Source: Oceanispirochaeta crateris (GTDB lineage Bacteria; Spirochaetota; Spirochaetia; DSM-2461). From it: 64,000 nt of DNA. Shown here piece after piece: positions 2,052 through 42,243 of the stretch. Every line of letters begins with the position of its first letter. Within the stretch, counting starts at the first letter, position 1. The translations under genes were made by a program, and so were the position numbers. Location: the NCBI RefSeq assembly GCF_008329965.1, contig NZ_CP036150.1:1302001-1366000 (forward strand), in the 5' to 3' direction. The notes beneath the pieces were generated by a model. It did not search any database. It was not told where the DNA came from and saw only the letters and a list, made by a program, of their open reading frames with translations.

Positions 2052-2132
2052 GGGGAGGTTCCCGAGTGGTCAAAGGGGGCAGACTGTAAATCTGTTGCTT
2101 CGGCTTCGAAGGTTCAAATCCTTCTCTCCCCA
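2052..2132 (+). tRNA. tRNA-Tyr (GTA), copy 1
   Basis: A class II tRNA of 81 nt with a 7-bp acceptor stem (GGGGAGG / TCTCCCC, last pair G-U), anticodon loop CTGTAAA between CAGA and TCTG, a long variable arm (TGCTTCGGCTTCG region) and T-loop TTCAAAT. Discriminator A. CCA is not encoded. It is identical to the copy at 2237-2317. Confidence 0.95.
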
Positions 2133-2140
2133 TAATTTAT

Positions 2141-2214
2141 GCCTTCTTAGCTCAGCTGGCCAGAGCACGTGACTTGTAATCTCGGGGTCGTCAGTTCGAA
2201 TCTGACAGAAGGCT
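2141..2214 (+). tRNA. tRNA-Thr (TGT)
   Basis: A 74-nt class I tRNA: acceptor GCCTTCT/AGAAGGC, D-arm GCTC...GAGC, anticodon loop CTTGTAA giving TGT, T-arm GTCAG/CTGAC with loop TTCGAAT, discriminator T. The anticodon stem CGTGA/TCTCG has a U-U mismatch at positions 29-41. A run of nine T follows the gene end. Confidence 0.93.
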
Positions 2215-2236
2215 TTTTTTTCTATATAACTGATCC

Positions 2237-2317
2237 GGGGAGGTTCCCGAGTGGTCAAAGGGGGCAGACTGTAAATCTGTTGCTTCGGCTTCGAAGGTTC
2301 AAATCCTTCTCTCCCCA
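2237..2317 (+). tRNA. tRNA-Tyr (GTA), copy 2
   Basis: Base-for-base identical to the tRNA-Tyr at 2052-2132, including the variable arm. The three tRNAs are probably one transcript ending at the terminator at 2325-2356. Confidence 0.95.
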
Positions 2318-9549: not shown

Positions 9550-9564
9550 ATAATGTTAATTTAA

Positions 9565-9906
9565 CAGGTCTGACTGCCGCCGGAAGGCTTGTTCTTCCGG
9601 AGGAAAGTCCGGGCTCCATAGAGAATGATGCCGGGTAATTCCCGGGCGTTCCCTTATTGGGAACGACAGAAAGTGTCACAGAAAACAAACCGCCTTCTGC
9701 AAGTCAGAAGGTAAGGGTGAAAAGGCGGGGTAAGAGCCCACCGCTCCATCGGCAACGAGGGAGGCACGATAAACCTCATCAGGAGCAAAATCAAGCAGCA
9801 GACCGGGTTTCTCGCCTAAAGTCTGCGGGTAGATTGCTAAAGTTCAGGGGCAACCCTGGAATAAGATAGATGGCAGTCCTAAGACAGAACCCGGCTTACA
9901 GACCTG
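9565..9906 (+). ncRNA. rnpB: RNase P RNA (bacterial type A)
   Basis: The catalytic RNA that matures tRNA 5' ends. CAGGTCTG (9565-9572) pairs perfectly with CAGACCTG (9899-9906) as helix P1. The conserved 5' block GAGGAAAGTCCGGGCTCC, the internal motif AAGGGTGAAAAGGCGG, and the 3' block ACAGAACCCGGCTTACAG form the universally conserved core. About 342 nt, normal for type A. A T-rich run (TTTTTATT) follows P1. TTGATG (9527-9532), 18 nt, TAATGT (9551-9556) is a possible promoter inside the preceding gene. Confidence 0.96.
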
Positions 9907-9929
9907 TTTTTATTCTAATTGAGGCAAGA

Positions 9930-35548: not shown

Positions 35549-36490
35549 ATGAGTGAAACCAAGCTTGAAAAGAACATAGATGAGCACCTCGAAGACGTCT
35601 ATCGTTCTGTTTCTGCACGAGATATTGAAAAAGCTTTGTCCCAATTGGACGAGGCTTATTCCATAGACTTTGACCGTATTGAACTGGCTGGTCTTCTCAG
35701 AATTCTCAAGTTCTGGAAAGAACGCTGGTTCAGAATGGCAGATTTTTCAGGCCTATACGAAAAAGGTGATTATCTGCTGAACCAGTGGGATCAATTTATG
35801 AATTGGTATCCCACTATTAACAGCGACGCATGTGAGAGAGGGATTCAATCCCTCAAATACATGGTTCATTCAGAAGCGCTGGACTGTTATGAACAGCTTC
35901 ATCTGGATGACAACAATGATTTGGAACTGCTCCTGGGTATCGGAAGATGCAACAAGGTGCTGGGGAACTATGAAAGAGCGGTCAGCATCCTGGAAAAGGG
36001 AGTAAAAATCAGCAGAGAGAATCCAGTGATTCTTGCCGAACTGGCTGATACATATGCCCTGGTTGATGAAATGCAGGGTGCAAAAATATTTTTTCGTGAA
36101 GCTTTTTACCTTGATCCTGATCTGGTTGATCTAAACCGTTTGGAATCAGGTTTGATAATAAAGTTGATTGAGAAAGTTTCAAAAACCGGTATTGATATGA
36201 AATACATTAAAGATTGGATTCCAGTTTATGGAGTGATCTATGGTGTGTTCAATATCAAGAGAGAAATGAGACCAATTGAGTACGGTAAACTCAAGCAGTC
36301 CATATTTTCTCTTCAGAACGAAATCCGGCAGAACAACGAGAACGGGAAGCTGGTACCCCGTTTAATAAATAGGTATTTTTGGCTTATTGACCACTATATA
36401 AGCATAAAAGAAGATAGAAAAACGATTGACGAGGTCCTGATGAATATCAAACTGCTAAACCCGTCAATATACCGGCAATATATCAATTGA
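35549..36490 (+). CDS. TPR-like protein cotranscribed with greA
   Basis: A 313-residue cytoplasmic helical protein with no signal or membrane segment. Residues about 115-200 contain TPR-like repeats ([52 protein letters not shown]). Otherwise unrecognised. It lies 21 nt before the GreA fusion, whose N-terminal half is also helical-repeat-like, so a direct partnership with GreA is plausible (inference). Weak CAGG precedes the ATG. Confidence 0.75.
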   Translation: MSETKLEKNIDEHLEDVYRSVSARDIEKALSQLDEAYSIDFDRIELAGLLRILKFWKERWFRMADFSGLYEKGDYLLNQWDQFMNWYPTINSDACERGIQSLKYMVHSEALDCYEQLHLDDNNDLELLLGIGRCNKVLGNYERAVSILEKGVKISRENPVILAELADTYALVDEMQGAKIFFREAFYLDPDLVDLNRLESGLIIKLIEKVSKTGIDMKYIKDWIPVYGVIYGVFNIKREMRPIEYGKLKQSIFSLQNEIRQNNENGKLVPRLINRYFWLIDHYISIKEDRKTIDEVLMNIKLLNPSIYRQYIN

Positions 36491-36511
36491 CTGTAGGAGT
36501 ATATAAAAATT

Positions 36512-39205
36512 ATGTCAGACGAAATGATCAGCAAAATTAGTGATTTATTAAATGAGGAAAAGTGGACGAGGGCCGCACTCAGTAACTATACAATCAAAAA
36601 TTTTGAAGAGCTGGATGAGTCAGTTGAAGAAATCTTGTCTTCCAATGCACAGGATGAAATCAGAGATCTGTGTGAACAGCATCTGGATCATTCAAAAAAC
36701 AGCATTATCGCTCTTTATATTTCAGGAATCATATCACTGCACAAACAGCAGATTGATGACTCCCACCTGGTAGAGCTCATCAACATTTTCTCAGGAAATC
36801 ATAAATGGAATATTGTTGAATTTCTGTGTGAGAGGATTCTCAAATTCGGTGAAAATAAAATGGCTCTTAAGGTGCTGGCAGATTGTTATGCCAACGAAGA
36901 CCGCCTAGAAGATGTCCACGAAATCTGGGAAAGACTGATAAAGATCGACTATGTAGAAGCAGATATAGTCAAGAAGTTGGCAGAAAAAAAAGAAGCCGAT
37001 GGGAAAATGGATCAAGCCATTGCTTATTATAAGAAAGCAATTCACAGATATATCAATAAAAACTTGTTCACCAACGTGCGGGACATTTGGGGAAAGCTGA
37101 TTGAATTGAATCTGGAAGATCTTGAATTTTTTCTCCTTGTTGAAAAAAAGATAGCCAAAACAATGTCTCCGGAAAAATCAATGATCCTTCTGGAAGACCT
37201 CTACCCCGCCATCCAGTCCAAGGAAGAATGGCAAACAGCAATTGATGTTCTCAAACTGATTCTTCAGTATGATTCAAAAAATCCCTGGGCTCGAAAAGAG
37301 ATCGTAAACTGTTACAGAAGCCGATTTGATGGACACAGTCAGCTGGAAGAATATATCAAATTATCCAATCTCAATCAGAGTTGGAGGAATATTACCGAAG
37401 CGATTTCTGATTTTGAAAAGCACATCTCCTTCGATGCAGGCAACTTTGTATTCCACAAGACATGGGGTGTGGGAGTTATCAGAGAAATCAAGGGTGATCA
37501 AATAACCATAGACTTTTCTACGAATCGCGGACATACGATGTCATTGAAAATGGCAGTAAATGCCCTCATCAGTCTGACAAAGAACCACATATGGGTTCTT
37601 AAAAGTATTCTGCCAAAGCAAAAACTTCATGATAAAGTCAAAAAAGATATTCCCTGGACTCTTAAAACTGTAATTAGAAGTTTTGACAATGCAGCGGATA
37701 TGAAACGCATGAAAGCTGAGCTAGTTCCCGCGGTTCTAACCCAGGGAGAGTGGTCCAGCTGGAGTACAGAAGCCAGAAGAATTTTGAAAACAGATGCTAA
37801 TTTTGGTAATATGCCCGAGAAACTAGATCTGTTCATGGTCAGGGATAAACCCATCACCTTCGAAGAAAAGACCTTTAATAGGTTCAAAGCTGAAACAAAT
37901 TTCTTTGATAGATATCAGACCATTCTTGAGTTCATGAGAGAGTCAGATCCCGATTCTGATTATTTTTCTGAAATGTTCAACTACTTTACAGCCTTCCTCA
38001 AGGCCGCCAACGTCAACGAACATGTAGTTTGTTCTTATCTGTTTATCACTGAAATAATTAAGGATTATCCATTCCTCAATCCCGGCATTAACTATACATT
38101 CAAAGAAGTTTTTGATGATATTGAAGATTTAGAATTCATGTTTAATTCTATTCAATATCCGGATTTGAAGAGAGATTTCCTCACTGAATTAAAAGCCAAT
38201 ATTGAAGATTGGCATAATTACTATATCCAGTTGTTTCCTTATTATCTGAACAAATCCGTAGTTGAAGATCTATTAAGCAGTGGTTTTGATTCTTTAGTGA
38301 AAGAGAAACTCCAAGATATTATGACTCATTTCCGAGAATTCAGAGAAGCCTTTCTCTGGATAGCCCGTTCGGCTGTGGATGAGCCTTGGTTCCAGTCTCT
38401 AGGCATTCCCTATGAGAAGATTCTGATCAATATGATTCACCTTCTGGATATCACTTACAGAGATATCAGCAACAAGAGAAATGTGACTGAAAATAAGAAG
38501 CTAAACAGAGCGATTCAGACCTATTTATTTAAAGAAAGCAGATTAGAAAACTTCATCCTTAGTGGAGACGAAGACACCGTAAGCCGACTGTTCACTCTCC
38601 TCCAAGATGTGAAAGAAATGGACGTCACCGTAAAACTGGGTATCAAACAAAAAATCAAAGAAAAATATCCAAATATTAAATTCCTGGGCGAAGTGGAAGA
38701 GACTCCCACAACCGTTGCCTCCAGAGCCCTCATCGTTCTGGAAAACAGCCTGAGAGAAAAGCAGAAAGAGCTGAAGCATATCCTCGATGTAGAGGTTCCT
38801 AAGAACTCGAAAGAAATTGGAATTGCCATTGAAATGGGAGACCTTAAGGAAAATGCCGAATATAAAGCAGGCAAGGAAAAGCAGGAATCTCTTAATATTC
38901 AGGTTGGTAAGCTGAAAGAAGGAATTGAAAAAGCAAAGGTTTTTGATCCTTCCACACTTGATCTTAAGAAAGTTTCTTTCGGTACGAAAATTACTCTCTT
39001 GAACCTCAATGATGAAAGTGAGGAAATCTTTACCATACTCGGTCCCTGGGAATCCGATCCATCCAATAACGTGATATCCTACATTTCACCCTTTGGTAGC
39101 GCCGTCATGGGAACACCTTTGAACAAAGAATCAAAATTTACAATCAATGATAAAGATTACTCCTACAAAGTCACCAAAATTGAAAAAGCTGATTTATTAA
39201 ATTAA
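36512..39205 (+). CDS. greA: Giant GreA: helical-repeat N-terminus fused to transcription elongation factor GreA
   Basis: 897 residues, against about 158 for ordinary GreA. The last ~160 residues are GreA: coiled-coil tip GDLKENAEYKAGKEKQ with the acidic pair Asp777 and Glu780 (equivalents of E. coli Asp41/Glu44) that lets RNA polymerase cleave its backtracked transcript, then the FKBP-like domain (VSFGTKITLLN, ISYISPFGSAVMG). The first ~310 residues are TPR-like helices. Residues about 313-360 (FHKTWGVGVIREIKGDQITIDF) resemble a Tudor/CarD-like barrel, and more helices follow. I recall similar long GreA proteins in Borrelia and Treponema. AGGAG lies 12 nt before the ATG. Confidence 0.93.
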   Translation: MSDEMISKISDLLNEEKWTRAALSNYTIKNFEELDESVEEILSSNAQDEIRDLCEQHLDHSKNSIIALYISGIISLHKQQIDDSHLVELINIFSGNHKWNIVEFLCERILKFGENKMALKVLADCYANEDRLEDVHEIWERLIKIDYVEADIVKKLAEKKEADGKMDQAIAYYKKAIHRYINKNLFTNVRDIWGKLIELNLEDLEFFLLVEKKIAKTMSPEKSMILLEDLYPAIQSKEEWQTAIDVLKLILQYDSKNPWARKEIVNCYRSRFDGHSQLEEYIKLSNLNQSWRNITEAISDFEKHISFDAGNFVFHKTWGVGVIREIKGDQITIDFSTNRGHTMSLKMAVNALISLTKNHIWVLKSILPKQKLHDKVKKDIPWTLKTVIRSFDNAADMKRMKAELVPAVLTQGEWSSWSTEARRILKTDANFGNMPEKLDLFMVRDKPITFEEKTFNRFKAETNFFDRYQTILEFMRESDPDSDYFSEMFNYFTAFLKAANVNEHVVCSYLFITEIIKDYPFLNPGINYTFKEVFDDIEDLEFMFNSIQYPDLKRDFLTELKANIEDWHNYYIQLFPYYLNKSVVEDLLSSGFDSLVKEKLQDIMTHFREFREAFLWIARSAVDEPWFQSLGIPYEKILINMIHLLDITYRDISNKRNVTENKKLNRAIQTYLFKESRLENFILSGDEDTVSRLFTLLQDVKEMDVTVKLGIKQKIKEKYPNIKFLGEVEETPTTVASRALIVLENSLREKQKELKHILDVEVPKNSKEIGIAIEMGDLKENAEYKAGKEKQESLNIQVGKLKEGIEKAKVFDPSTLDLKKVSFGTKITLLNLNDESEEIFTILGPWESDPSNNVISYISPFGSAVMGTPLNKESKFTINDKDYSYKVTKIEKADLLN

Positions 39206-39220
39206 GAAGTTGTAACCCTA

Positions 39221-39251
39221 AAAAAGGCTGCCCAGTGGCAGCCTTTTTTTT
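39221..39251 (+). terminator. Rho-independent terminator after greA
   Basis: Stem GGCTGCC (39226-39232) / GGCAGCC (39237-39243), loop CAGT, flanked by A-run and eight T. Confidence 0.92.
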
Positions 39252-40110: not shown

Positions 40111-42243
40111 TCAGTCCCTATTAATACCTTTGATTGAACAGGATATCCGTTTTCTATCAAGGTCCACTTCAAGAATGCGAACCATCAATTTCTGAGAAAC
40201 TTTTACCACTTCAGATGGATTTGAAATATAGTGATCTGCCATCTGACTGATATGGATCAGACCATCCTGATGCACCCCAAGATCAACAAAAGCACCGAAG
40301 GCTGTGACATTAGTTATGACACCAGGAAGGATCATCTCTTCTTTCAAATCATCAATGGTGTGAACATCTTCGGAAAATTCAAAGTTCTTGAAATCTTCCC
40401 TGGGATCACGTCCCGGCTGCTCCAGCTCCTTTATAATATCCCTGATGGTTTCTACACCACGATTTTCTGATGTCAGCTCGCCCAATGAGAGTGATTTTAA
40501 TATTTTAGGATCTGCAATCAATTCAGAAAGACTCTTATTCACTCGGGAACAAAGCGAATCTACAAAAGCGTACTGCTCTGGATGGATGGCCGTATTATCC
40601 AGAGGATTCTTTGAATCCTTGATTCTTAAGAACCCGGAGGCCTGTTCAAAACATTTCTGACCGACACCCTTCACTTTCTTAATTTCTTCCCTTGATTTAA
40701 AGGGACCATGTTCATCTCTATATGCCACAATGGCAGCGGCTGTTTTTGATGTCAAACCTGAAACATAGGACAGCAATTTTTCACTGGCCGTATTCAACTC
40801 GATTCCTACAGAGTTCACACAGTGCATAACCACTTCATCCAGGGCCGTAGACAATGACTTTTGATTGACATCGTGCTGATATTGGCCGACTCCAATGGAA
40901 GAAGGGTCAAGTTTGACAAGCTCAGCCAATGGATCCATGAGACGACGACCTATAGAAACGGCTCCCCGGACGGTAAGATCATAATCTGGGAATTCTTTTC
41001 GGGCAATCTCCGAAGCAGAATATATGGAGGCCCCGCTCTCGTTTACAAGTACAACAGGAATGGATTTGAGACAGCTCAGACTATTGCAGAATTTCTGAGC
41101 TTCCCTGCCTCCCGTTCCGTTCCCGACGGCCACAGCCTCAATATTGTATTTTTTTACGAGTTTGCTGATCGTCTCTTCAGCCTGTACTGTTTTATTATGT
41201 GGGGCCAGGGGGTAAATGACTCCATCAGAGAGGAGTTGTCCTTGAGGACTGAGGCAGACGATTTTACATCCTGTTCTGAGTCCCGGATCAAGGGCAAGGG
41301 TTGCCTTCTGCCCCAAGGGAGACTCCATCAAAAGCACCTTCAGATTTTCGGCAAAGACTCTGATGGCTTCATTGTCGGCCGCCTCTTTCAGTCTTTTTCG
41401 ATTCTCCGATTCCAATGAAGGGGCTAAAAGCCTCTTATAGCAGTCTTTTTCCACGGCCTGAACAAAATCTGTCCAGTATGTACTTTTTACAGGACTAATC
41501 TCATCTAAGGCCTTCAGAGCTTTTTCCGGATCGGGACGGACCTTCAGTTTTAAAAAGCCCTCATCAGCAGCTCTGTACATGGCCAAAATACGATGAGAAG
41601 GAGCATGAGCAGAGGGTTCCTCACGATCAAAATAGTCTCTATATTTTTGTCCTTCCTCTTCTTTACCTTTGACTGGTTTTGTTTGAAGAATAGATGAGAC
41701 AGTGAAAACGGTTCGTAGCTTTTTTCTTACAAGCAGATCTTCGTTTAGTCTATCCGCTAAAATATCAGAGGCTCCCTGCAAAGCCTCTTCCCAGCTTTGA
41801 ACTTGCCCCTCTTTTCCATAAAAATCTTCCTGCTTAATATCACTAGGTGAACAATTTTTGAGGATCATTTCTGCTAAGGGCTCCAGGCCTCGCTCCTGAG
41901 CAATCATTCCCCTAGTTTTTTTTCTGGGTTTGAATGGAAGATACAAGTCTTCCAGGATGGATATCTCAGTGGTTCTTTCAATGGACTGACGCAGAACATC
42001 AGTGAGCTTTCCCTGAGAATCAATGGATTTTAAGACTGCTATTTTTCTCTTCTCAAGTTCTTTGAGAGATTCAGCTGATTTTAATATGGAGGAAATTTGG
42101 ACCTCATCGAGGTTCCCCGTCCTTTCCTTTCTATACCGTGCCATAAAAGGTACGGTTGCCCCTTCTTCTGCCATAGTCAGAACATTATTTATAATTCCTT
42201 CGGGCAAAGAATACTTCCGTGCGATTTCTTTTGTTATAGTCAT
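40111..42243 (-). CDS. tex: Tex-family RNA-binding transcription accessory protein
   Basis: A 710-residue cytoplasmic nucleic-acid-binding protein. Tex N-terminal helical domain (YSLPEGIINNVLTMAEEGATVPF, ARYRKERTGNLDEVQI), YqgF/RNase-H-like domain (LALDPGLRTGCKIV), tandem helix-hairpin-helix (LLSYVSGLTSKTAAAIVAYR, FKSREEIKKVKGVGQKCFEQ) and a C-terminal S1 domain (VTAFGAFVDLGVHQDGLIHIS). Tex influences transcript turnover and toxin expression in other bacteria. No Shine-Dalgarno; the promoter predicts a leaderless mRNA. Confidence 0.95.
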   Translation of the reverse strand: MTITKEIARKYSLPEGIINNVLTMAEEGATVPFMARYRKERTGNLDEVQISSILKSAESLKELEKRKIAVLKSIDSQGKLTDVLRQSIERTTEISILEDLYLPFKPRKKTRGMIAQERGLEPLAEMILKNCSPSDIKQEDFYGKEGQVQSWEEALQGASDILADRLNEDLLVRKKLRTVFTVSSILQTKPVKGKEEEGQKYRDYFDREEPSAHAPSHRILAMYRAADEGFLKLKVRPDPEKALKALDEISPVKSTYWTDFVQAVEKDCYKRLLAPSLESENRKRLKEAADNEAIRVFAENLKVLLMESPLGQKATLALDPGLRTGCKIVCLSPQGQLLSDGVIYPLAPHNKTVQAEETISKLVKKYNIEAVAVGNGTGGREAQKFCNSLSCLKSIPVVLVNESGASIYSASEIARKEFPDYDLTVRGAVSIGRRLMDPLAELVKLDPSSIGVGQYQHDVNQKSLSTALDEVVMHCVNSVGIELNTASEKLLSYVSGLTSKTAAAIVAYRDEHGPFKSREEIKKVKGVGQKCFEQASGFLRIKDSKNPLDNTAIHPEQYAFVDSLCSRVNKSLSELIADPKILKSLSLGELTSENRGVETIRDIIKELEQPGRDPREDFKNFEFSEDVHTIDDLKEEMILPGVITNVTAFGAFVDLGVHQDGLIHISQMADHYISNPSEVVKVSQKLMVRILEVDLDRKRISCSIKGINRD

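Follow-up and report, generated by a model that had tools for sequence, protein, structure and literature searches.

The locus described here raises the question of what a transcript cleavage factor does with a large additional front half. The window, a stretch of 64,000 nucleotides from Oceanispirochaeta crateris (NZ_CP036150.1, positions 1,302,001 to 1,366,000), encodes a giant GreA. Named families of giant GreAs exist for spirochaetes (NF011309) and for chlamydiae (NF004969), and the gene itself is not new. The model NF011309/PRK14720, which matches the giant over its full length, is named just 'transcription elongation factor GreA'. The points we consider new lie outside its description: the barrel in the front half and its probable Tudor identity, the origin shared with the PVC groups, the front half that stands free of GreA, and a linked TPR gene. 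In the open-access literature that we searched, we found no work addressing what the spirochaete giant does. The question has some reach, since the giant is usually the sole protein with a GreA coiled coil in the spirochaete genomes checked and the chlamydial form is present in nearly all genomes sampled.

The features of the locus are as follows (positions in the window, strand, description):
35549..36490, +, TPR protein of 313 aa, a likely partner; 21 bases separate its stop codon from the start codon of the giant
36495..36499, +, AGGAG, likely ribosome-binding site of the giant (sequence)
36512..39205, +, giant GreA, 897 aa, NF011309/PRK14720 family (NCBIfam and AlphaFold2)
36512..37426, +, N-terminal TPR-like superhelix, residues 1-305 (all-helical model; structural matches)
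37445..37576, +, predicted Tudor/SH3-like barrel, residues 312-355, the most conserved piece of the front half (model, profiles)
37577..38689, +, second helical region, residues 356-726 (AlphaFold2 model)
38690..38722, +, low-confidence linker, residues 727-737 (pLDDT below 50; split forms end here)
38729..39187, +, GreA domain, residues 740-892, with a coiled-coil hairpin (744-807) and a C-terminal domain (Pfam; 1grj)
38837..38854, +, catalytic tip GDLKEN, residues 776-781 with D777 and E780 (sequence; the same as the E. coli GreA tip)
39226..39251, +, hairpin resembling an intrinsic terminator, GGCTGCC CAGT GGCAGCC followed by eight T (sequence)

The giant and its GreA module

The open reading frame at 36512-39205 (+) starts with ATG and encodes 897 aa. 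Its match to NF011309/PRK14720 reaches 1052.4 bits, where the cut-off is 714, and covers residues 2-895 of 897. Judged from the sequence, a full-length family score of 1052 bits together with the invariant columns is far beyond chance. Alignment A1 has 20 invariant or near-invariant columns, nine of them within residues 301-352; GreA columns could not qualify in this alignment, because A1 includes the split forms described below. The AlphaFold2 model, built with 51 relatives, has a pLDDT of 86.8 over the whole protein and a pTM of 0.53, so that the relative placement of the parts of the giant is not trustworthy.

An earlier note on this DNA, made from the letters alone, had claimed an intact GreA tip at the end of the 897-residue protein, and this is borne out. 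GDLKEN is found at residues 776-781, and in the model D777 and E780 sit where the helical hairpin has its tip. Pfam places GreA_GreB_N at residues 745-810 (E 1.2e-14, 54.7 bits, cut-off 24.5) and GreA_GreB at residues 819-891 (E 2.6e-18, 66.2 bits, cut-off 26.9), and the fold of the GreA part is close to that of 1grj (Z 15.8, rmsd 2.7 over 150). With both Pfam domains and the acidic GDLxEN tip, the protein has the sequence features of the GreA/GreB transcript cleavage factors. It has the coiled coil, the C-terminal domain and the acidic tip in common with E. coli GreA and GreB, which, however, lack the front half and fall into a separate clan.

A genome profile search detected the GreA coiled coil (PF03449) once in the window's genome, in the giant. 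Most spirochaete genomes have a single PF03449 match, while a count by hand gave two matches in about 42 of the 247 and no match in 17; that the single match is the giant was read directly among the matches listed. A second GreA-family gene of the window's genome (L002:1477-1935, minus strand; G000:C1 about 2941800-2942100) is Rnk-like: it encodes a GreA_GreB C-terminal domain and a near-cut-off Rnk_N, and the tip is absent.

A predicted small barrel between two helical regions

The front half is predicted to be helical both before and after the barrel, in line with the helical repeats of the earlier note. Residues 1-303 resemble TPR superhelices in the PDB with Z of 10-12, values that helical repeats can reach through their arrangement alone, and the Pfam TPR models stay under their cut-offs in the giant (best TPR_19, 21.9 against 25 bits). 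For residues 356-726, no Pfam family emerged consistently when the core alignment was scanned. Kinship to Ski3, Ctr9/Paf1 and similar proteins was rejected, as Foldseek with the full model gave TM values of about 0.1-0.2; these matches were treated as generic helical repeats.

Between these regions, AlphaFold2 predicts strands at residues 312-315, 319-327, 330-335, 341-344 and 353-355 and a short helix at 345-351, with a pLDDT of about 88-91 for the block. The small barrel that had been suspected at residues of about 313-360 is thus predicted with five strands at 312-355. Three Pfam models match residues 307-340 below their cut-offs, namely PcrA_UvrD_tudor, CarD_TRCF_RID and DUF3553; the first two describe small barrels, and DUF3553 is a model of unknown function in Pfam. 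The window barrel scores 17.7 bits with PcrA_UvrD_tudor (PF21196; gathering score 23.9) and 16.5 bits with CarD_TRCF_RID (PF02559; gathering score 23), and a planctomycete relative (L241) reaches the PcrA_UvrD_tudor cut-off with 23.9 bits. When 55 family barrels were scanned singly at E up to 1, CarD_TRCF_RID matched 37, PcrA_UvrD_tudor 30 and DUF3553 29. A profile of the 55 barrels searched against the PDB found Thermus UvrD (7egt) as its best match at E 0.00098, and every other hit down to E 10 was likewise a chain of UvrD/PcrA.

For the fold searches, the barrel was folded alone. UvrD/PcrA Tudor domains occupy Foldseek ranks 1-6, with no match at E 0.001 or below. In the VIA comparison, the barrel matches 7egt with Z 6.8 (rmsd 1.3 over 47 residues) and 7egs, a UvrD Tudor bound to the RNA polymerase lobe, with Z 6.4, ahead of Mfd (6ac8, Z 5.9), CarD (4l5g, Z 5.7) and RapA (Z 5.3); all these values are below 8, a range also reached by common small folds. 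With such modest Z values and unrelated small barrels close below, a fold of the small-barrel class is firmly predicted, and its Tudor identity is a best guess. That best guess, from sequence profiles and the predicted model, places the barrel nearest to the Tudor domains of UvrD/PcrA, with CarD, Mfd and RapA behind. The earlier note had called for a profile or structure search among CarD_CdnL and Tudor folds and had spoken of a CarD, Mfd or UvrD-like barrel. Of these, UvrD is favoured; CarD and Mfd match more weakly, and every Pfam score of the window barrel is below its cut-off. A CarD identity was set aside, as UvrD/PcrA matches come first by both sequence and fold. The giant also differs from these proteins in its architecture. 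It has neither the helicase of UvrD/PcrA, where the Tudor domain is C-terminal, nor the C-terminal domain of CarD, nor the motor of Mfd, and its barrel is embedded in a helical scaffold that is fused to GreA. CarD/CdnL and the RNA polymerase-interacting domain of Mfd are small barrels of the same kind, and the window's genome has separate CarD-sized (176 aa) and Mfd-sized (1125 aa) genes with real RID domains.

What the barrel binds can be approached through these relatives. PcrA binds both UvrB and the RNA polymerase beta subunit with its Tudor domain (PMC8318588). Solved UvrD/PcrA Tudors bind RNA polymerase (7egs; PMC8318588), and therefore a second polymerase contact of the giant is a reasonable expectation. 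We consider it unlikely that the barrel instead holds nucleic acid, either upstream DNA or nascent RNA, and gives the protein a grip on the transcript or template. DNA binding is possible for SH3-like barrels including the CarD and Tudor types (PMC5906684), and in the Pfam scan the KOW, RimP and Rad52 models weakly match the barrels of some family members; the nearest relatives, however, are UvrD/PcrA Tudors, whose described role is protein binding (PMC8318588).

The double use of the PcrA Tudor domain also bears on repair. The front half could be a repair or coupling factor, with the Tudor barrel on UvrB or on a hairpin of the helicase-interaction type, while GreA clears the stalled polymerase. 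In 7egt, the closest structural match, the UvrD Tudor is in complex with UvrB, and PcrA uses the same domain for both partners. However, the genomic neighbourhood showed no link to repair genes and the fusion to GreA points first to transcription, so that we regard a repair role as improbable.

A further possibility is that the barrel is a structural joint packed between two helical arms that make all outside contacts. The invariant barrel residues include V313, H315, G321, F335, A348 and L352 (alignment A1); most look like core or turn positions and are also kept in UvrD Tudors, so that conservation alone marks no binding face. This fits a joint. However, minimal forms from Verrucomicrobiota start near the barrel, without a preceding arm, and a purely structural role is in our opinion rather unlikely. 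A polymerase contact is the role that we prefer for the barrel.

Distribution and origin of the fusion

Of 247 genomes of Spirochaetota, 137 exceed the cut-off of NF011309; matches at E 0.001 or better occur in 242, some of them to GreA alone. In Chlamydiota, NF004969 is above its cut-off in 49 of 50 genomes. This model (NF004969/PRK06330, 'transcript cleavage factor/unknown domain fusion protein') describes a form of about 720 aa with a shorter N-terminal arm, homologous over residues 203-891 of the giant, which itself scores 147.6 bits against a cut-off of 697. In the other direction, the spirochaete front-half HMM gives 148-214 bits on single-frame chlamydial proteins. Long matches of the core profile A4 were found in roughly half of 79 genomes of Planctomycetota and in about two thirds of 79 genomes of the Verrucomicrobiota group, a few of those counted in either being TPR-only. 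Genomes of other phyla were reached with a 16S primer pattern. In 35 genomes outside these groups, A4 gave nothing beyond two weak TPR-range matches.

The barrel, the second helical region and GreA occur together in 34 of 35 PVC loci from four groups. This first batch comprised nine intact loci of non-chlamydial or mixed origin (L197, L198, L199, L201, L202, L203, L205, L206 and L207), the exception L204, and 25 chlamydial loci including the interrupted L234. A second batch comprised 24 loci of Planctomycetota and Verrucomicrobiota, where L239 repeats the gene of L197. Taken together, the intact PVC proteins represent 56 distinct genes (33, and 23 new), all of them fused to GreA; every intact ORF has the GreA profile in its C-terminal part and a GD[LI]xEN tip. 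In L204 the giant is split over two frames by a frameshift. L200 and L234, which are one gene, show an in-frame TAA interruption on a complete chromosome of chlamydial type, with front-half and GreA matches of L234 in one of two frames. Both interruptions may reflect sequencing error or decay.

Two quick trees, with SH-aLRT support only and in the case of GreA from a short alignment, address the history of the fusion. In the core tree, Spirochaetota lie apart from the PVC groups (support 99) and the free-standing forms are nested among spirochaetes; these require two state changes, where one would be possible. In the GreA-domain tree, the fused domains of spirochaetes and PVC bacteria form one clan (98), and 13 stand-alone spirochaete GreAs fall into the other, together with E. 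coli GreA and GreB. As all fused GreA domains belong to one clan, the data fit a single old fusion. On these sequences, the simplest reading is that one fusion, or its transfer, took place before Spirochaetota and the PVC groups parted.

This bears on the chlamydial protein. A 2024 review suggested that the 715-aa chlamydial GreA is not functionally comparable to E. coli GreA, taking its large size as the sign (PMC10995303). All chlamydial proteins that we examined keep the GreA catalytic tip and have the front half in common with spirochaetes, and comparability with E. coli GreA is therefore directly testable. As a side observation, one genome has a second long NF011309 match (G037:C100:35938-38193) besides L006, which may be a duplication or a mixed assembly.

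Front half without GreA

Nine spirochaete loci encode the front half alone, as proteins of 729-757 aa that end at the linker, at about residues 700-729 in the numbering of the giant. They come from six genome families: f27 (L078), f36 (L079), f61 (L081, L082), f33 (L083, L084), f35 (L085) and f44 (L086, L087). A separate GreA is present in the genomes of seven of the nine: G042 (f27), G185 (f61), G048 and G090 (f33), G050 (f35), and G063 and G074 (f44). The genome profile search did not detect the GreA coiled-coil domain in the remaining two, G051 (f36) and G200 (f61). Two further stand-alone GreAs were compared, from G156 and G161 (f33), where the front-half loci lie outside our sample. Simple gene fission was considered as the origin of these stand-alone GreAs and rejected, since eight of the nine group with E. 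coli GreA/GreB and not with the fused clan; the ninth (L271, f27) lies on the same side as E. coli GreA/GreB, on a long, weakly placed branch.

Another spirochaete, G091 (f51), shows a different state. Its protein L075 keeps the front half together with the C-terminal domain of GreA and has lost the coiled-coil tip, and PF03449 was found neither in this genome nor in four other f51 genomes. In G064 and G075 (f45), the matches are limited to a stand-alone GreA and weak TPR hits; the front half may have been lost there or may be missing from incomplete assemblies.

Several deep-branching families of spirochaetes have the front part on its own, and L075 has lost its tip, so that the front part would appear to serve a function independent of GreA. 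It would be very surprising if the giant were a conventional GreA whose lineage-specific extension is inert. The known activity does reside in the GreA domain alone, but the extension is conserved across phyla, stands free without GreA, and is kept where the tip was lost.

The linked TPR gene and a proposed mechanism

Of 85 spirochaete loci, 66 have a homologue of the TPR gene as the next gene upstream, in the same orientation; in the other 19 it is not adjacent. The 66 include all nine split loci and the tip-less L075. These counts were obtained with an HMM built from the same upstream ORFs that were later counted, seeded by the window protein at E 1e-10, so that weak TPR members were counted because stronger ones admitted them. 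Downstream neighbours are common only within the genus, and general synteny therefore does not explain the linkage. Beside the PVC giant genes, no TPR-gene homologue was found apart from a weak TPR-range match. On this conserved gene order, the upstream TPR protein is a likely partner of the giant, and its position makes it a concrete candidate to bind the protein-binding arm that the earlier note had suggested.

We propose, at about even chances, that the protein is a transcript-cleavage GreA mounted on a large platform, in which the Tudor barrel makes a second contact to RNA polymerase and the helical arms recruit the upstream TPR protein. The GreA module would enter the secondary channel of backtracked RNA polymerase, where D777 and E780 would stimulate RNA cleavage. 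The barrel (residues 312-355) would provide the second contact, probably on the beta subunit by analogy with the UvrD/PcrA, CarD and Mfd barrels. The arms might keep the giant on the polymerase and recruit proteins, first the upstream TPR protein. For this proposal we draw on the computed folds, the intact tip, the origin shared by Spirochaetota and PVC, the separable halves and the linked TPR gene; from these we infer the binding events, the cleavage activity and the GreA-independent function of the front half. If true, such a factor, with its two polymerase contacts and an arm for recruitment, would be a bacterial counterpart of eukaryotic elongation scaffolds in style, not by descent, and the linked TPR gene offers a concrete candidate for its partner.

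Since lineages without the fused GreA or without its tip keep both the front half and the TPR gene, a bolder version may be considered, which we put forward tentatively and at somewhat less than even chances. The front half and the adjacent TPR protein might form an independent, so far undescribed complex associated with RNA polymerase in Spirochaetota and their PVC relatives, with GreA as a detachable effector.

On the side of the polymerase, we inspected RpoB of the window's genome (L274). The classical TGE of the helicase-interaction motif was not seen in the SI1 region within the first 700 residues. The sole TGE in these 700 residues sits in the N-terminal region (STGEIRQKEIYMGDIP), and a stretch containing AGE (IYRAGEKIHPHDTDEL) is found where SI1 would be expected.

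Other genes of the window were noted in passing. A Tex gene (Spt6-like, with an S1 domain) lies at 40111-42243 on the minus strand, two genes downstream of the giant and opposite to it, an adjacency common to members of the genus only. The window further holds a class A RNase P RNA gene at 9561-9914 (+) and three tRNA genes at 2052-2317 (+).
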